Origin: Ignavibacteria bacterium
GTDB taxonomy: Bacteria; Bacteroidota; Ignavibacteria; Kapaibacteriales; Kapaibacteriaceae
NCBI GenBank assembly: GCA_947458785.1
Contig: CANGZU010000008.1
Span: 1-36,866 of the forward strand
DNA length: 36,866 nt
Reading direction: 5' to 3'
Numbering within the stretch: the first letter of the stretch is position 1; every line of letters starts with the position of its first letter. The position numbers and the translations under genes were made by a program. This document shows positions 1-36,460 of the stretch, piece after piece. The notes beneath the pieces are model-generated. The model worked only from the letters and a program-made list of their open reading frames with translations. It was not told the origin of the DNA and did no database searches.

Positions 1-1106
1 GGTGCGATAAGTGTATCGCGATAGTCAAGAAAGAGGCCATAGGTTGTCTTCGACCGCGACGCCATGTTGCCTGCGATGCTTGAGTATGTATCATCGCCAC
101 TCGCATCTATAAACAGGCTTATCATTCCATATCCACGCCGATAATCGGAGTATCCCAATGTATTGGTCGTATCTCGCGCTAGATAGCTGTCGTTGCCTTG
201 CAGGTCTACGATAATCGAAACTGCGTTGGCGTTGCCGCTACCGAGCGAGAGACTCTCGCACGTATAACGATCGTTGCCGTCTTGGTCAAACAAGAAGCCG
301 TAAGCAATATCGTGTCCGCATCCTTGTGATACGCCAAACGATGTATATGTGTCATTACCTCGCACGTCATGCAGGTAACCAGTTGCAAAATGAACACCCG
401 ATCCCTGAGCGTACTGATGTGCGACGTACTTGTCATCACCACCACGGTCGATCAAGGAACCAATACCAAACCAATATCCGGTGCCTTGTCCATAGATATC
501 GCTGATGTACGTGTCACTGCCGCTACCGTCAACAAGCACGGCAATTCCGCCAGAGGCATGAGGTCGACTGCCAAGGGCTGCACCCTGTGAGAAGGTTATC
601 TGGTGGTCATCATAACGTAGCACGTCAACAAATGGACTCGAAGCTAGGTAGGTATCATTTCCAGTGCGGTCGCTGAGCAAACCAACTCCGCCCACACCAG
701 CGAATGCCTGTGATTGGGCGTGACACCGGTACACGTCGTTTCCATCATCATCGAGTAGCATCCCGATGCCAAAAATGCCAGCCCCTTGCGAGTTCGTTCC
801 ACCAGAATAGATATCGTCACCACGTAGATCATGCAGAATACCGAAACCGAGCAATCCTGAACCTAGCGAATAGGTGCCGGCTTGATATGCGTCATTGCCT
901 GCCCGGTCGATAAGGATGCCAACGCCATTCACGCCTGCTCCAAGTGAGTAGTCACCACCCGAGTATGTGTCATCACCCTCAAGGTCAACGATAAGGCGAA
1001 CTGGATTCAATCCGCCCGAGACTTGTGGCTCATCTGTTAGCTGGTAAACATCATTGCCACCAACGTCGATGATCATCGTAAAGCGGCCCTGATACACATC
1101 GTTGCC
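1..1106 (-). repeat. Protein-level tandem repeat array, at least 12 units of mostly 26-27 aa (78-81 bp)
   Basis: Units read by hand include GDDTYSGGDYSLGAGVNGVGILIDRA, GNDAYQAGTYSLGSGLLGFGILHDLR, GDDIYSGGTNSQGAGIFGIGMLLDDD, GSDTYISDIYGQGTGYWFGIGSLIDRG, GDDKYVAHQYAQGSGVHFATGYLHDVR, GNDTYTSFGVSQGCGHDIAYGFLFDQD and GNDRYTCESLSLGSGNANAVSIIVDLQ. Confidence 0.9.
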
Positions 1107-1919
1107 GGGTCCTCCGACAGCGATACGACCATAAGGAGTGTCGAAGACAATCGTCTTGATACTATCGATCAGTACATCACGAGCACTGAGTAACTCATTC
1201 GAGATGCGAAGAAGGTCATCGTGCAGGGATGGTCCAACACGAAGCATCGTCTTGACAGAGGACACATGGATACCAGTGTATAATTTCTGCGCAGCATCGA
1301 ATGCTTCCTGCTCCTCACGATAGGCCTCCCAGACACTTACGGTTTCCGAAGACCGAGAAATGCGCCAGAGAGAATCCAGTTGTGATCGTATTCGTGCATC
1401 AGGCCATGACGAGGCGCGAAGACTTGGCGCAACAGCATCTGTTGCTTGAATGAGTAGGCCGGCATGACGCAGAAGAACGATCGATGAAGCAACATTCAAT
1501 GATGCTAGTCGGCGCTTTTCGAGTCCGAGCTTGGCAATCACAGCATCGGCCTCCGGCATATTGTCGAGAAACACCCGCTGGTACTCTCCGAGGTCGAGTG
1601 AGGCGTGTGTGAGGTCCATGACCGACGTGAGATAACCGTTCGTGTTCTGTAGGAGAAGATCAGCAATGCTCTCGCTAATGTGGATGGCTGAGTAGGGCTT
1701 ACGGAAGATGTTGTCGAGCGCTACGGTGCGATGGTTGTCACGGCTCAAAAGATCATGTGGCATGGCGAGGTCTCGCTCATGCATGCCCAGCAACGAAAGT
1801 GCTGAGTCGATCTGTCGCACGACATCTGGTGTGATGCGCCATTGAGCAAACGCAGACGGGGCTGCAATCAGAACAGCGAACAACAGAGAACAAACGCGGA
1901 TAAAATTGCAAGGTGTCAT
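1..1919 (-). CDS. Secreted repeat protein, C-terminus truncated by the window edge: signal peptide, ~270 aa unassigned domain, then tandem G[ND]DxY repeats
   Basis: Manual translation from ATG at 1919: MTPCNFIRVCSLLFAVLIAAPSAFAQWRITPDVVRQIDSALSLLGMHERDLAMPHDLLSRDNHRTVALDN..., open to position 1 (...SKTTYGLFLDYRDTLIAP). Its ATG overlaps the TPR gene stop as ATGA. Absent from the ORF track because it is not closed in the window. Confidence 0.9.
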   Translation of the reverse strand, partial: MTPCNFIRVCSLLFAVLIAAPSAFAQWRITPDVVRQIDSALSLLGMHERDLAMPHDLLSRDNHRTVALDNIFRKPYSAIHISESIADLLLQNTNGYLTSVMDLTHASLDLGEYQRVFLDNMPEADAVIAKLGLEKRRLASLNVASSIVLLRHAGLLIQATDAVAPSLRASSWPDARIRSQLDSLWRISRSSETVSVWEAYREEQEAFDAAQKLYTGIHVSSVKTMLRVGPSLHDDLLRISNELLSARDVLIDSIKTIVFDTPYGRIAVGGPGNDVYQGRFTMIIDVGGNDVYQLTDEPQVSGGLNPVRLIVDLEGDDTYSGGDYSLGAGVNGVGILIDRAGNDAYQAGTYSLGSGLLGFGILHDLRGDDIYSGGTNSQGAGIFGIGMLLDDDGNDVYRCHAQSQAFAGVGGVGLLSDRTGNDTYLASSPFVDVLRYDDHQITFSQGAALGSRPHASGGIAVLVDGSGSDTYISDIYGQGTGYWFGIGSLIDRGGDDKYVAHQYAQGSGVHFATGYLHDVRGNDTYTSFGVSQGCGHDIAYGFLFDQDGNDRYTCESLSLGSGNANAVSIIVDLQGNDSYLARDTTNTLGYSDYRRGYGMISLFIDASGDDTYSSIAGNMASRSKTTYGLFLDYRDTLIA

Positions 1920-3223
1920 CGCTTCATCATAGAAGTTATCTGTTGGGCTAGTTCAGGAGAGAGCTCTTCAAGTCGTGTATGCAGCTCCGTGATCTGTTGG
2001 GCGTCTCCTGTACGCACAAGACACCTCAAACATGCGTAGAGTACATCAGGACTTCGCGGAAACTTCTCAACTGCAACCTTAATGAAAGCGGCAGCCATAG
2101 AGCATTGATCAGCATCAAAACATGTGTTGATACGTGAGATGTGCAGTACGCTCGCAGTATCACGAAGCGCAATCGCCTGCATATGGGCACTCAGCGCCTC
2201 GCCAAGATTTCCGCTGCGCCGATGTACAATGGCGATTGAATTGTAGGCATCCGGTGCAAGCTGGGCCGAGACCAGTGCGCATCTTTTGAATGCGTTGATA
2301 GCATCTTCTGTGAAGCCCTGTTGCTCGTATGCAGCGCCTAGGTTGAAGTATGCTTCGCCATAGTTTGGCCTTAGTCCAACGGCGCGCTTGAGAGCTTTCG
2401 AAGCTACTTCGTGACGTTGCAGACGCATGTTCAGCAGTCCAAGGTTGTACCATGCCATTGGATCTTGGGGATACTTTACAGCCGTCAACGAGGCCACGTT
2501 AAAGGCGCGCGTTGAATCACCATGCTCCTGGAGCGCCCCTGTCAGCAGAAAATATGCTTCTCGATTGTTCGAGTCGAGCCGAATGGCTGCATCAAAATGG
2601 ACTATGGCTTGTGCTACCTTACCACTCGACATGCAGGATTCACCAGCGGCAACTCGATAGGGGGCTACATCAGGATATTGATCGACAAGCACTTGGTGGA
2701 GTTCGGCTGCTGCGGAAAATTGGCCCGTTTTGAAATAGCACTTTGCGAGTTCAACAAGAACACTTGGATCTGAGCGACGAAACATGACGTCTTCAAGCGG
2801 GGCAATAGCCTTTTCATATCTGCCAGCCTTCGCATAGGCAAGCCCCAGGGCCCACATCGTCTGCACAGAGTCGGGGAAGCGACGCACAGCGCCTTCCAGG
2901 GTGTTCAGGTTGGCATCACGCTGATTTGTTCGTGCGAAGCACTCTGCAAGCACGAGCCAAGCTTGCATGCGCGTCGAATCAAGGGCAAGTGAGCGATTGG
3001 CAAAGAACAGTGCTTTGTCGGACTTGTTCTGCTGAATGAGCGACATCGTGTAGATGCCGAGAAGATTAGGATCGGTCGTGTTTTCAATGTTCATCCGTGA
3101 GAGAATCCGCTCGATCTCCGACCAATTCTTGTCACGCATTGCAGACTCAAGTGAACGTTGATCTGGAGTCTGAGAAAAGACAAACGACGACGTGACGATG
3201 AGGATGACAAGAATAGTTGTCAT
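1916..3223 (-). CDS. Exported TPR-repeat protein
   Basis: Start at ATG 3223 (MTTILVILIVTSSFVFSQTPDQRS), a signal peptide that overlaps the ribD stop as ATGA. Multiple TPR-like helices, e.g. PDSVQTMWALGLAYAKAGRYEKAIAPLED and PNYGEAYFNLGAAYEQQGFTEDAINAFKRC. Confidence 0.9.
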   Translation of the reverse strand: MTTILVILIVTSSFVFSQTPDQRSLESAMRDKNWSEIERILSRMNIENTTDPNLLGIYTMSLIQQNKSDKALFFANRSLALDSTRMQAWLVLAECFARTNQRDANLNTLEGAVRRFPDSVQTMWALGLAYAKAGRYEKAIAPLEDVMFRRSDPSVLVELAKCYFKTGQFSAAAELHQVLVDQYPDVAPYRVAAGESCMSSGKVAQAIVHFDAAIRLDSNNREAYFLLTGALQEHGDSTRAFNVASLTAVKYPQDPMAWYNLGLLNMRLQRHEVASKALKRAVGLRPNYGEAYFNLGAAYEQQGFTEDAINAFKRCALVSAQLAPDAYNSIAIVHRRSGNLGEALSAHMQAIALRDTASVLHISRINTCFDADQCSMAAAFIKVAVEKFPRSPDVLYACLRCLVRTGDAQQITELHTRLEELSPELAQQITSMMKR

Positions 3224-4314
3224 CAATGGGGCATGATGCGGTAGAGATAATGCTGGTCGCATCCAACCGAACGTGTTTCGATGAGGTGCCATGTGCGAGG
3301 GTCTACGTGGAAATCCCACTCTCTGCCCATTCCGAGGGTAAGTGGAGCCATGTGAATATGCATCTCTTGAACGATACCGGCATGCATGAAGTTATCCAAC
3401 GTAACTGGCCCGCCTTCAAGCAGTATCGAACGTATGCCGCGAGCAAACAACGATCGTGCGATCTCCTGTGGCTGGATCGTGCTGCCGACGGCTGGCAGCG
3501 TTAAGAACTCACATCCAAGGTCTTCAAGTAAGGAACGTGCATAAGCTAGCTCAGGATCATCAGACGTAACAATGATCGTGCGCTGCTGACGGGCCGTTGA
3601 TGCTATCACCGAATCATGAGGTGTACGACACTGAGGGTCTAAGATGATCCGTACAGGGTCTCGCCCCTCAACGAGTCGAACATTGAGTGAAGGGTTGTCG
3701 GCAATGACCGTGCCGACGCCGATGAGCACGGCATCAAGCGATGCACGCATGCGATGCACAATTATGCGAGATTCTTCTGAAGTAAGCCAGCGACCGCTGT
3801 TCTCGGGCATTGCAATCTTGTTGTCAAGCGACGTAGCAACCTTAGCGACGATATATGGGGTCCGGCTCTTCATTGCATGAAGGAAGTACCGCGCTACCCA
3901 TTCGCAGGACTGTTCCTCGATACCAACCAGAACTTCTTTGCCAGCAGCTCGGAGCACGTCAAGCCCCTTGCCCGCAACCAATGGGTTGGGATCTTGGCAG
4001 CCGACAACGATGCGCGCTATGTTGGTATCAGCCACGGCGTGGGCACAGGGCGGCTGTTTTCCATGATGCGCGCAAGGCTCAAGCGTTACATACATCGTAG
4101 CGCCCGTGAGGTCGCAGTTTTGAGCATGATGTAGAGCATTGATCTCGGCATGGTGCTGACCATAACGCTCGTGCCAGCCTTCAGAGAGAAGCTCGTTACC
4201 ACGTGCGATCACGCACCCAACCAGTGGATTGGGGCTCACCTGCCCAGCACCGCGCTCGGCAAGTGCAATGGCATGGCGCATCCAATGATGATCTAGTTCT
4301 TCTTGAGTGGCCAT
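3223..4314 (-). CDS. ribD: Bifunctional diaminohydroxyphosphoribosylaminopyrimidine deaminase / 5-amino-6-(5-phosphoribosylamino)uracil reductase
   Basis: MRHAIALAERGAGQVSPNPLVGCVI, HAEINAL and LEPCAHHGKQPPC zinc-deaminase motifs, followed by a reductase domain (VAKVATSLDNKIA...). Confidence 0.95.
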   Translation of the reverse strand: MATQEELDHHWMRHAIALAERGAGQVSPNPLVGCVIARGNELLSEGWHERYGQHHAEINALHHAQNCDLTGATMYVTLEPCAHHGKQPPCAHAVADTNIARIVVGCQDPNPLVAGKGLDVLRAAGKEVLVGIEEQSCEWVARYFLHAMKSRTPYIVAKVATSLDNKIAMPENSGRWLTSEESRIIVHRMRASLDAVLIGVGTVIADNPSLNVRLVEGRDPVRIILDPQCRTPHDSVIASTARQQRTIIVTSDDPELAYARSLLEDLGCEFLTLPAVGSTIQPQEIARSLFARGIRSILLEGGPVTLDNFMHAGIVQEMHIHMAPLTLGMGREWDFHVDPRTWHLIETRSVGCDQHYLYRIMPH

Positions 4315-5087
4315 GTAAACGTTATCTGCGTTTGATAGGGGGCTGGCCTCGCCGGAATGATGATGTCGGCGGTGTATTGCCCTGGTGCAAGCGGTTGACC
4401 TTGCGTATCAGTGCCATCCCAGTCAAGGACATAGATTGATACTTCGCCCACAGATTCTGGGCGCACCGGTGTGATGACGGTTAGGAAAGCCATGCCCTGA
4501 TTCGACTGCCAAATGGTCTTGAATCCGGATCGGATTACGACTCGTATATCTTCGGACGACGGAAGATATTCGCCCTCGATCATTCGGTTGCGCGCTGCAT
4601 TGACGCCGATTGCTATGGATTCTTCATCGCCGGGACGAATAAATGGAGTTAGTGTTAGTGCCGAAGTATCCCGTGATATGAATTGAACTGGATGAATCTT
4701 CATGATCGATCCTTGCTCAAAACCGATTGATAGACCTGATTGCGCCAGCCGTGTTCTAATGGATACAGGAAGACGACAGCGAACGAAAGTGCTCGTTGAT
4801 CTGGTGGACACCCCAGAAGTCACGGTCTGCATGAGAATACTGTCTTTGACTCCCTCGTTGCTTTCCACGTACAAAAGTACCTGCCGATACACTCCACCAT
4901 CTGAGGCTGGTGGGACACTAGCTGTGATCAGCAATGAATCCTGAGAGTCTATGCTAAGCATGATTGGTGAGGAATCGTGGAGTTCTATCGTGGCCACGCG
5001 CTGCGATGGTTTGTGGGCCGAGGTACATCCGAGCGCAGCGAAAAGGCTCAAGGTGGCAAGCAACATCATGAATGGTGAAGCCGTCAT
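4293..5087 (-). CDS. Putative lipoprotein, function unknown
   Basis: Signal peptide with a lipobox-like LFAALGC in MTASPFMMLLATLSLFAALGCTSAHKPSQ. ATGA overlap with the upstream PNP gene, 22 bp overlap with ribD. Confidence 0.75.
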   Translation of the reverse strand: MTASPFMMLLATLSLFAALGCTSAHKPSQRVATIELHDSSPIMLSIDSQDSLLITASVPPASDGGVYRQVLLYVESNEGVKDSILMQTVTSGVSTRSTSTFVRCRLPVSIRTRLAQSGLSIGFEQGSIMKIHPVQFISRDTSALTLTPFIRPGDEESIAIGVNAARNRMIEGEYLPSSEDIRVVIRSGFKTIWQSNQGMAFLTVITPVRPESVGEVSIYVLDWDGTDTQGQPLAPGQYTADIIIPARPAPYQTQITFTWPLKKN

Positions 5088-5899
5088 ACGATCTCCTGAG
5101 TAAGCAGGGTAGTGATGATAGTACTAAGTTGATGGCCAGCGCTGGATGCAACATCAAGAACTTCATCATGTGTCACGGAACGTTGCACCGTATCGGAAAG
5201 TGTGTTTGTGACCATAGAGAATGCAAGTGTGGTCATCCCTAGGCTGCGAGCATGTCGCTGCTCACGAACAGTCGACATGCCTACGAGATCGGCACCGAGA
5301 CGGCGCAGCATGCGTATCTCTGCACGGGTCTCGTAGCTGGGTCCAAGCACCTGACAGTATGTTCCCATTTCGAGCGCAATGTGTTGTTGGGCACACGTTT
5401 CAAGAATAGATGTCTGCAGATCTTGGTCAACAAGGAGGCAGGGATCAGGGGAGCCCGTGTATCCGTGTCTCGTGCTGCCGAGAAACGTCAGGTCGATCGT
5501 ATCCGTGATCAAGGCTATGTCGCCAGGCACATATCTCCAGTGCAGGCCGCCCGCCGCGTTCGTGATGATCACTGTCCTTATGCCTGCGGCATGCAGAAGA
5601 TCGATCAGCTGCATGCATGACGTGTGCTCATGTCCCTCGTAGGCATGAAGTCGGCCGGAGCAGACGAGCACATGCCGCCCATGAAGGTCAAGCATTTCTG
5701 CGTGTGAGGCATGTCCAGCTACTGAGCTCACATCCATACCAGGCAGATCGCTATATGATACGCGGCCCATCGAACGGGCCTGCAGTGGGCAAAAGCGAAA
5801 GCCAGAACCTGTGATGATGCCGATTGTCGGATCGACGCCCAACCGCTGGCGAAGAACACGGGCTGCAAGGCTCACTTCATGTTGCTGCATTGAACTCAT
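5084..5899 (-). CDS. Purine nucleoside phosphorylase family protein (paralog 1)
   Basis: PTIGIITGSGF, VCSGRLHAYEGHE, IITNAAGGLHW, GTYCQVLGPSYETRAEIRMLRRLGADLVGMSTV. The ORF extends to 5944; the likely start is MSSMQQHEVS at 5899. Confidence 0.88.
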   Translation of the reverse strand: MSSMQQHEVSLAARVLRQRLGVDPTIGIITGSGFRFCPLQARSMGRVSYSDLPGMDVSSVAGHASHAEMLDLHGRHVLVCSGRLHAYEGHEHTSCMQLIDLLHAAGIRTVIITNAAGGLHWRYVPGDIALITDTIDLTFLGSTRHGYTGSPDPCLLVDQDLQTSILETCAQQHIALEMGTYCQVLGPSYETRAEIRMLRRLGADLVGMSTVREQRHARSLGMTTLAFSMVTNTLSDTVQRSVTHDEVLDVASSAGHQLSTIITTLLTQEIV

Positions 5900-5959
5900 G
5901 GCGTTGATAAGGGGGCAAGTTAGCCCCTTGCCGACATTTTTCACGGCGTATCTTTGCGC

Positions 5960-13041: not shown

Positions 13042-15222
13042 ATGGATGCTCTTCTGCACGAACAGCATACCGAGAAGGGGTCTCGGGAAATTGTCAGCTA
13101 CGACAATGCTATCGTGAAGTTGTTCGCGGTAGCAGCACTAGGATGGGGCTTGATTGGATTCCTCGTCGGAATCATCATCGCTGTCAAACTCTACATTCCA
13201 GAGTTTCTGGGTGGGATCGACTTTTTGGGCTACGGACGACTTCGTCCGTTGCATACCAATGCCGTGATATTTGCCTTTGCAGGTAATGCCATATTTGTTG
13301 GCGTCTACTATTCCTTGCAGCGTCTGTGCAAGGCTCGGATGTTCAGTGATCTGCTCAGCAAGATTCACTTTTGGGGATGGCAGACTATCATCGTAACGGC
13401 TGCGATCACGCTACCACTTGGTATCACGACCAGCAAGGAATACGCAGAACTCGAATGGCCTATCGATGTTGCCATAACGCTCGTATGGGTAGTCTTCGGA
13501 TGGAACATGATCGGCACCATTATGCGACGCAAGGAACGTCACATGTACGTGGCCATCTGGTTTTATCTGGCGACGTTTCTCACGGTAGCACTCCTCCATG
13601 TGGTGAATTCTCTTGCGCTACCAGTGCACCTGCTCAAGAGCTACTCAATGTATGCTGGTGTCCAGGATGCACTTGTGCAGTGGTGGTATGGACACAATGC
13701 TGTCGCATTCTTTCTCACGACGCCGTTCCTTGGGATCATGTACTACTTCATTCCCAAGGCGTCGGGGCGTCCGGTCTTTTCCTACAGACTCTCCATCATC
13801 CACTTCTGGGCGCTCATTTTCCTCTATATCTGGGCTGGTCCGCACCACCTCTTGTATACTGCGCTTCCCGATTGGGCACAGTCCTTAGGCGTTGTATTCA
13901 GTTTTATGTTGATCGCACCGTCATGGGGTGGCATGGTCAACGGACTGCTGACGCTGCGCGGTGCCTGGGATAAGGTGCGTGTTGACCCCGTACTTAAGTT
14001 CTTCGTTGTTGGTATAACAGCCTACGGTATGTCAACATTCGAAGGACCGATGATGTCGCTCAAGAACATCAACGCCCTGACGCACTATACCGACTATATC
14101 ATTGCGCACGTTCACCTAGGAGCATTGCTTTGGAATGGGGGTTTGACCTTCGCCATGCTCTACTATATCATTCCGCGTATTTACCGTACGAAGCTCCACT
14201 CCATCTCGCAAGCCAATTGGCATTTCTGGCTCATGACACTTGGCGTAGTGGTCTACGTCATCCCAATGTACTGGGGAGGTATTACCCAGTCGCTGATGTG
14301 GAAACAGTTCCTGCCAGATGGCTCATTGCAGTACAACAACTTCCTCGAAACGGTCACACAGCTGATCCCGATGTATGTGATGCGTTCCATTGGTGGTACG
14401 CTCTATCTCATCGGCGCATGCGTTGGTGTTTGGAACCTCTACAAGACTGCAAAGAGTGGCAGCCTTCTTGCCAATGAAGAGGTCTACGTCGTTAACATGA
14501 TGAAGGCCGAGGCACGATCCTCATCGGAACACAAAGAGCACTGGCACCGCGCTCTGGAAGCGAGGCCGGTGCGATTCTCTGTCTATGCCCTCGTTGCTGT
14601 GATTATCGGGGGAGTCGTAGAGTTCATACCAACAGCGATGGTTGAATCGAACATTCCTACAATCGCATCGGTAACACCATACACGCCCCTTGAACTCGAA
14701 GGCCGAGACATCTACATCCGTGAAGGTTGCTACACGTGTCACTCACAGATGATACGACCGTTTCGTAGTGAAACTGCCCGATATGGCGACTATTCTAAGC
14801 CGGGAGAGTTCGTGTATGACCGTCCATTCCAATGGGGATCCAAGCGGACTGGTCCCGACTTGCATCGCGAAGGAGGCAAGCGTCCGAACGCGTGGCACTG
14901 GAAGCACATGGAAGATCCTCGGTCAACCTCGCCCAATTCCATCATGCCGGCCTATCCATGGCTCTTTAGCTCAAAGCTTGATACGAAACATACCGAGGGC
15001 AAGATCCTGACCTTGCAGAAGCTTGGAGTGCCGTACCCAGACGGTTACGCCACACAGGCTGTTGCAGACCTCGTGAACCAGGCAAAAGAAGTTGCTGCTG
15101 GGGTCGAGGAAGGGGGCATCACAGGTGTACAAGCAGATCAAGAGATCATTGCCCTCATTGCCTATCTGCAACGTCTCGGGACAGACATTAAGAAGTCAGC
15201 ACCATCAACATCAATGAACTGA
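13042..15222 (+). CDS. ccoNO: Fused cbb3 cytochrome c oxidase subunits I and II (CcoN-CcoO)
   Basis: CcoN part: RPLHTNAVIFAFAGNAIF, WYGHNAVAFFLTTPFLGIMYY, HYTDYIIAHVHLGALLWNG. CcoO part: YIREGCYTCHSQMIRPFRSETARYGDYSKPGEFVYDRPFQWGSKRTGPDLHREGG...MPAYPWLF. One uninterrupted ORF. Confidence 0.96.
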   Translation: MDALLHEQHTEKGSREIVSYDNAIVKLFAVAALGWGLIGFLVGIIIAVKLYIPEFLGGIDFLGYGRLRPLHTNAVIFAFAGNAIFVGVYYSLQRLCKARMFSDLLSKIHFWGWQTIIVTAAITLPLGITTSKEYAELEWPIDVAITLVWVVFGWNMIGTIMRRKERHMYVAIWFYLATFLTVALLHVVNSLALPVHLLKSYSMYAGVQDALVQWWYGHNAVAFFLTTPFLGIMYYFIPKASGRPVFSYRLSIIHFWALIFLYIWAGPHHLLYTALPDWAQSLGVVFSFMLIAPSWGGMVNGLLTLRGAWDKVRVDPVLKFFVVGITAYGMSTFEGPMMSLKNINALTHYTDYIIAHVHLGALLWNGGLTFAMLYYIIPRIYRTKLHSISQANWHFWLMTLGVVVYVIPMYWGGITQSLMWKQFLPDGSLQYNNFLETVTQLIPMYVMRSIGGTLYLIGACVGVWNLYKTAKSGSLLANEEVYVVNMMKAEARSSSEHKEHWHRALEARPVRFSVYALVAVIIGGVVEFIPTAMVESNIPTIASVTPYTPLELEGRDIYIREGCYTCHSQMIRPFRSETARYGDYSKPGEFVYDRPFQWGSKRTGPDLHREGGKRPNAWHWKHMEDPRSTSPNSIMPAYPWLFSSKLDTKHTEGKILTLQKLGVPYPDGYATQAVADLVNQAKEVAAGVEEGGITGVQADQEIIALIAYLQRLGTDIKKSAPSTSMN

Positions 15223-34611: not shown

Positions 34612-35645
34612 CGTGCAACACCGAGTAGCGCCGCGGCCCGCGAGCTACGTGTGAGAGTGAACTTCTTTTCGGAAGCGTCCTCATCAAAGACAATCACCTG
34701 CGGCGAAGAACCGCCAGCCAAGCGCTGGCAGATGACCTCAGCACGGGCATCGTTGTAGGTAACGATGTCAAATGAGTCACTTTGTACAGATGAGATCCGC
34801 GAACGTGTTCGAGTGCTGACGCGCAGCAAACCCGACTGAACTGGCACGAGTGCAAACTGAGATGATGTGATGGCAAGTCCGCGAGGAAACTGCCGAGGTC
34901 CTTCAGAGGCCCTGACGGTGAGATCAAGCGTCTTGAGGACTTCGCGCGTGGTAGGGGAGATAAATGAAATTGTGGGCGTTGTTACGCTCTCGCTTGGGCT
35001 GATCTTGCCGCGGCCAAGTGAGACAACACAGAAGACATTGGCTACGGGGTCCTCTCGTACGTACCATGGGTACTCACCGACATCCATCTTGTGCACAATC
35101 TCGGTTGTTCGTGTATCAATAACGACAACGCATTGGGAATCTGGTATTGTCACACAGATCTGGTTGCCAAGACATGCAATCTGTCGTGGTTTTCCGGGGG
35201 TCTTGATGATACGTGCAACTTTGGAGGTTGTAAGGTCGATAACTCCCACGCAGCCACTCTTGGGTGAGGTGGCGTATGCTGTAGTTGCATTCGCAAAACA
35301 GATGTCGCTTGTTCCGTCAAGTTCGTTGAACGTAAAGATCGTATCAGAGTATACAAGCCGGTCTGCATCGTACACAATGATCCAAGGCCGATCAATGGAC
35401 GTGAAGTAAACATTGTTACGGAACCTTGTCATGGTAGGACTGGCCCCGAAGTCAACATCGTTGGGATTGATCTGCGAGACCTGCTCAGATGGAACAATCG
35501 TCGACGTCAAATCTTTACCACCTATCGTGGCCAACAAGCGCCATTGGTCATCGAACGAATTGATAAGGGGCTCATCCGGCGAACACGAAACGGCAAACCA
35601 ACAACATAGTACGACGAGTAATGCGCGGATAATGGTGGTGATCAT
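34608..35645 (-). CDS. Lipoprotein with beta-propeller-like (YncE/YVTN-type) repeats
   Basis: Lipobox-like FAVSC in [25 protein letters not shown]; repeated blade-like strands ([64 protein letters not shown]). Confidence 0.75.
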
Positions 35646-36460
35646 ACGATCTTGCTTACGATGTGATTGACAAGGTTCGTCATCTTCGGTTCTGCGATCG
35701 CAGCTGCTTCCAGAACATGCTCCAAACTAACTGGTTGAAGTGAATCAGGGAAACACTCATCGGTAATGATGCTGATGCCGAGCACAGCCATGCCCATGTG
35801 GCGGGCAACGATACACTCTGGTACGGTACTCATGCCAACAACATCTGCGCCAATACTTCGAAGGAATCGATACTCTGCGCGCGTTTCAAGATTCGGACCG
35901 GTTACAGCTACGTACACACCTCGATGCACCTTGATGCCGAGCTCAAGAGCAGCCCCTTCTGCAAGACTGAGTAAGTGCCGCGAGTACGGTTCGCTCATAT
36001 CAGGAAAGCGCGGGCCCAGCTCATCAATGTTCGGTCCAACCAGAGGATTATCTCCAAGTAAGTTGATGTGGTCGTCTATGAGCATGATATCGCCACGCCG
36101 ATACAGCGGATTCATACCACCGCACGCATTGGAGACAATAAGTGTTTCTACGCCCAGCATCTTGAAAACTCGTACAGGAAGTGTTATCTGCTGAAGTGTG
36201 TATCCCTCGTACTGATGGAATCTACCCTGCATAACAACAACAGGAACGCCTGCCAGTGATCCGAAGATCAAACGCCCCTTGTGTGATTCTACGGTGCTTA
36301 CAGGGAAACTCGAAATGTCTTCGTAAGGCATTGAAAAATCGACATCTACCTGAGCTGCAAGGGCTCCGAGGCCAGTTCCAAGGATGATTCCGACCTTTGG
36401 TTCTCCCTTGTAATGATTTCGGATATCATCGACGCACTGCTGGATTTGGGTAATGTTCAT
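35642..36460 (-). CDS. Purine nucleoside phosphorylase (paralog 2)
   Basis: KVGIILGTGLGALA, VVVMQGRFHQYEGYTLQQITLPVRVFKMLG, IVSNACGGMNP, YVAVTGPNLETRAEYRFLRSIGADVVGMSTVPECIVARH. Confidence 0.95.
   Translation of the reverse strand: MNITQIQQCVDDIRNHYKGEPKVGIILGTGLGALAAQVDVDFSMPYEDISSFPVSTVESHKGRLIFGSLAGVPVVVMQGRFHQYEGYTLQQITLPVRVFKMLGVETLIVSNACGGMNPLYRRGDIMLIDDHINLLGDNPLVGPNIDELGPRFPDMSEPYSRHLLSLAEGAALELGIKVHRGVYVAVTGPNLETRAEYRFLRSIGADVVGMSTVPECIVARHMGMAVLGISIITDECFPDSLQPVSLEHVLEAAAIAEPKMTNLVNHIVSKIV

Follow-up and report, generated by a model that had tools for sequence, protein, structure and literature searches.

A contig-edge gene of an Ignavibacteria bacterium encodes a beta-solenoid-like, putatively exported protein of a family undescribed in the libraries searched

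The window, by which we mean the whole stretch of 36,866 nucleotides analysed here, begins within a gene on the minus strand, whose frame runs from the ATG at position 1919 to window base 3 through 639 open codons with zero stops, just as the original prediction had read it. Comparison with the genome's contigs places window base 1 at the end of contig C8, and the start of another contig of the same genome, C161, matches this end over 149 identical bases, an exact overlap of two contig ends whose sequence is unique within the two contigs compared. On C161 the frame continues until a stop codon, and the leftward extension that had been proposed for completing the gene thus yields a protein of 590 + 338 = 928 residues. 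Relatives carry the same gene order (repeat gene, then NFACT) on single contigs, therefore the join is very probably correct; since the overlap agrees with this order, an assembly artefact is ruled out. The gene is real and encodes a protein of about 928 residues, exported as judged from its N-terminus. Its parts and surroundings are:

3..1919, minus strand: repeat-gene frame, residues 1-639 of about 928, continuing on C161 (L002/L083)
1842..1919, minus strand: signal-peptide-like N-terminus, residues 1-26, MTPCNFIRVCSLLFAVLIAAPSAFA followed by Q, recognised from the sequence and the orthologues
1134..1841, minus strand: helical N-domain, residues 27-262, from AlphaFold2 helices of low confidence
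21..1130, minus strand: predicted beta-solenoid, residues 264-633, 13 coils, from motif spacing, AlphaFold2 and coil consensus
522..662, minus strand: long coil of 47 residues (420-466) with an inserted loop, SPxxDxLRYxxH...QGAALGxRPxASGG, which carries R452
564..566, minus strand: R452 of the long coil, in 75 of 82 members
471..476, minus strand: Y482-W483, positions 16-17 of coil 467, the W in 75 of 82 members
390..392, minus strand: H510, position 17 of coil 494, in 73 of 82 members
309..311, minus strand: D537, position 17 of coil 521, in 77 of 82 members
1..149, no strand: exact end overlap with C161, which adds a HEAT domain and then an NFACT/RqcH-like gene
1916..3319, minus strand: TPR protein that has a signal-like segment; its TGA stop and the repeat-gene ATG overlap as ATGA
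3226..4314, minus strand: RibD (deaminase and reductase), a conserved neighbour

At least 12 degenerate repeats had been announced for the last ~1.1 kb, and we count 13 motifs of the form G[NDSGE]DxY, at residues 272, 288, 315, 341, 367, 393, 420, 467, 494, 521, 548, 575 and 608, with successive spacings of 16, 27, 26, 26, 26, 27, 47, 27, 27, 27, 27 and 33. Shuffled versions of the whole protein contained 0.14 motifs on average (at most 2 in 2000 shuffles), those of the repeat region by itself 0.24 (at most 3). The autocorrelation of the window protein peaks at 26/27: coils 315-367 have a period of 26 and the majority of the rest one of 27, with a coil of 47 residues at 420 and longer ones at 575 and 608. 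The consensus drawn from 557 coils reads D-x-x-G1-[ND]2-D3-x-Y5-x6-Q12-G13-x-G15-x-x-(x)-G-x-G-x-L-x-D, in which G1 and D3 are conserved at 99-100% (for D3 this is fixed by construction, the coil search key being G-x-D-x-[YFR]), Y5 at 93-98% and the Asp preceding the turn at 88-97%. Coil order is near-constant across orthologues, and matching coils are 54-68% identical between them, as against 30-37% between coils within one protein (38% and 31%, respectively, for the first full coil), which is not the pattern of an array that gains and loses repeats.

Outside the repeats, most complete orthologues begin with a similar signal-like segment, often ending in AQ, which suggests that the protein is exported and supports the secretion originally predicted. 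In one relative (L067 / L011, G018:C15:184749-189620) the repeat-protein frame spans 1324 codons and reaches far upstream of this segment, presumably through fusion with the upstream gene or a lost stop. The N-domain has no match in Pfam; D50, P54, D61, R64, F72, P75, D182 and E203 are conserved in the type found in the window's own order. Between the two phyla in which the family occurs, Bacteroidota and Armatimonadota, the N-domains reach an hhalign probability of 20% over 198 colinear columns, amounting to weak homology, and those of the long and short Armatimonadota types match well (96%). With C161 joined, the repeats lie in the middle of the protein and are followed by about 290 residues including a C-terminal HEAT-repeat domain, a true match to HEAT_2 (PF13646; 64.9 bits in P0002, Pfam cut-off 27.7) that is limited to this domain and is found in 24 of 25 aligned sequences, the exception being the truncated window protein. 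The long Armatimonadota type also scores above the Pfam cut-off for HEAT, and the fusion of HEAT with this solenoid is absent from the libraries searched. Several orthologues end in a Lys/Arg-rich tail. The designation as a surface protein finds no backing here, as neither a lipobox nor the C-terminal sorting domain that was to be looked for is seen in the protein, the C-terminus being occupied by HEAT. In two class-mates without HEAT, a PDZ domain lies N-terminal to the solenoid (L092:5754-8129(+), L093:5798-8194(+)), scoring 35.9 bits, above the Pfam cut-off, in one and 24.2 against a cut-off of 27 in the other.

The repeats matched nothing in Pfam (E up to 10), NCBIfam or the PDB sequences and gave only chance-level matches in PHROGs, and we found no paper on the solenoid family, in keeping with the earlier reluctance to assign it to a named family. 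AlphaFold2, fed with a two-sequence alignment of the window protein and one relative (L032), predicts two strands in most coils, with a pLDDT mostly of 50-80 in the repeats; the mean is 48 over the whole protein and 62 over the repeats, for which pTM is 0.60. In Foldseek, a second model of medium confidence obtained 38 matches, all non-significant (best E 0.79), which judged by their names are nearly all solenoids. A beta-solenoid fold class, one of the two originally proposed, is likely for the repeats on the strength of these models, and the family would be a kind of beta-solenoid protein undescribed in the libraries searched.

RTX proteins (PF00353) carry tandem C-terminal nonapeptides GGXGXDXUX and leave the cell by type I secretion (PMC6473919). 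The likeness to them is genuine as far as the turn is concerned: the residues of L-x-D-x-x-G-[ND]-D-x-Y are spaced as in L-x-G-G-x-G-x-D-x-L, with a Gly/Asp turn followed by a strand bearing a hydrophobic residue or Tyr at the same place, and RTX domains as well as a Ca2+-dependent antifreeze beta-helix are among the weak Foldseek matches. However, the family has one turn per coil of 26-27 residues rather than one per nonapeptide, Dx stands in place of the RTX GG, and the repeats are central. GGxGxDx-type matches are rare, P0001 having a single one and the 82 proteins 30 altogether, versus 858 LxDxxGxDxY motifs, and neither Pfam nor tblastn against plasmids or phages gave a match. The signal-peptide-like N-terminus, moreover, would argue for Sec export over type I secretion. 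A resemblance to RTX that falls short of identity had been noted from the start, and it holds; membership is rejected on sequence, Ca2+ binding by itself would not restore it, and an RTX-type beta-roll, which folds upon Ca2+ binding and is secreted by a type I system, is very improbable. In the Ca2+-dependent beta-helical antifreeze protein 3p4g, GND-type turns are stacked along one edge, as they may be here, but the family shares no sequence match with it and the fold match is weak. An ice-binding solenoid, to which the weak matches to 5uyt and 3p4g might point, can hardly be entertained, given that these matches are non-significant and that the consensus lacks a flat Thr/Asn array. The right-handed beta-helix enzymes acting on glycans that appear in the Foldseek lists (fucoidan lyase FdlA, AlgG, PL6 and the GH87 enzyme Agl-KA), none of them significant, have in common with the family the solenoid class predicted for its repeats and the clustering of conserved residues in a few adjacent coils, but their coil consensus differs, and no match below E 0.79 with the medium-confidence model and no Pfam match connects the family to them.

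Within the window's order, 45 of 60 related genomes contain a match, mostly as one full-length copy of about 900-950 residues with 40-51% identity, and two families of the order (f2 and f7) mostly are without the repeat protein. When 396 genomes from across the phylum were sampled, a solenoid-only profile gave matches in 29, every one belonging to the same class; the other matches of the full profile in the phylum are HEAT-like regions. One relative in named records comes from an Armatimonadetes MAG (L032), and the solenoid is present in 100 of 251 sampled Armatimonadota genomes, often in two copies, a short form of about 650-780 residues without HEAT and a long form of about 850-1000 residues with it. 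Both architectures exist in both phyla, the short one also in the window's order, and the short forms of the two phyla intermingle in the tree. Neither plasmids and phages nor IMG/VR viral contigs gave a match, and a mobile or viral origin is ruled out.

The gene neighbours mostly are housekeeping genes. Members of the closest family usually show the succession PNP, lipoprotein-like protein, RibD, TPR, repeat protein, NFACT. The lipoprotein-like protein (window 4293-5087, minus strand) has an FlgD_ig match below the cut-off and adjoins RibD in most relatives examined, and two purine-nucleoside-phosphorylase-like genes lie about 30 kb apart on the minus strand (5084-5944 and 35642-36460, the second recognised from its translation only). 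As read from the sequence, the long Armatimonadota type adjoins apparent phosphoglycerate mutase and CarA genes, and the short type, in some genera, an apparent rhomboid and a CsaB-like gene. No theme is common to the window's order and the two Armatimonadota types, and a function deduced from gene neighbourhood was rejected.

A set of four residues, new here, stands out from the coil skeleton. Among 82 aligned solenoids from both phyla, which are mutually related so that counts are not independent, R452, W483, H510 and D537, picked after inspection, are all present in 73 members, the window protein included. Among these 73, the only residues other than Gly, Asp and Tyr that are conserved at 97% or more are Q404, Q445, R452, W483 and H510, and D537 is present in 73 of 73; W483, H510 and D537 occupy position 17 of three successive 27-residue coils. 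R, W and H are missing together in seven of the 82 members at two separate places in the tree, six forming one Armatimonadota clade (L150, L152, L153, L154, L155, L156) and one belonging to the window's order (L095). R and W are never missing singly, and in two other members H and D alone are absent, with R and W kept. The coil skeleton persists in members without R, W and H, hence the set is not simply required for the fold. The pattern resembles a functional site and suggests that a rigid exported solenoid bears a site for catalysis or for binding a ligand. It should also be noted that position 17 shares parity with the core Leu at 23 in the strand alternation, and the W-H-D column could therefore face inwards and be structural.

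What, then, might be the role of this protein? Export, a near-fixed length, mostly single copies and position-specific conservation speak for a defined envelope task rather than a variable adhesin. An adhesin or matrix protein at the surface whose repeat array can expand, suggested by an exported, repetitive and Gly/Asp-rich sequence, is accordingly improbable: coil order is near-constant across the order, most genomes have a single full-length copy, conserved residues are tied to particular positions, and no surface-sorting domain is seen. Doubtful, though more probable than the adhesin, is a purely structural envelope scaffold, in which solenoid and HEAT domain would form a rigid two-part spacer binding partners, perhaps the TPR protein encoded upstream, and R/W/H/D would be an internal folding ladder. 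HEAT and TPR are protein-binding folds, the two class-mates add PDZ as another binding module, and the TPR gene lies directly upstream, with the ATGA overlap, and is kept in this place in most same-family genomes examined; the parity of position 17 points the same way. However, outside the closest family no TPR gene adjoins the repeat gene, and seven members retain the coil skeleton without R, W and H.

Over such a scaffold we favour, tentatively, an exported modular protein whose solenoid serves as platform for a candidate ligand or catalytic site. The protein would reside in the periplasm or cell envelope, where the solenoid would provide rigidity; its stacked D-x-x-G-N-D turns may plausibly be held by Ca2+. 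The ligand-binding or catalytic site would be made up of the W-H-D column and of R452, which the inserted loop contributes, and the HEAT domain might dock a partner protein, a function which would be dispensable, since the domain is absent in the short subfamily. The most likely ligand, guessed from the fold class by analogy with other solenoid enzymes, would be a glycan of the envelope or the extracellular space; the family shows no homology to any enzyme. Lineages without the site would then be inactive paralogues. Rather unlikely is the more far-reaching reading that the family represents undescribed exported beta-solenoid enzymes, spread over at least two phyla, whose coil type and R/W/H/D active site would both be new and whose inactive paralogues arose repeatedly; near-universal presence in much of one order would in that case imply a target common to the cell envelope.

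Since much of one order retains the gene in most of its genomes, and about 40% of the Armatimonadota sampled carry it as well, its function can hardly be trivial. The R/W/H/D set renders an unknown repeat protein testable by mutation, with the members lacking it as natural controls, and a profile of the family would annotate many genes which currently are blank. Elsewhere in the window, a single open reading frame (13042-15222, plus strand) resembles, by its translation, a fusion of CcoN and CcoO of a cbb3 oxidase.
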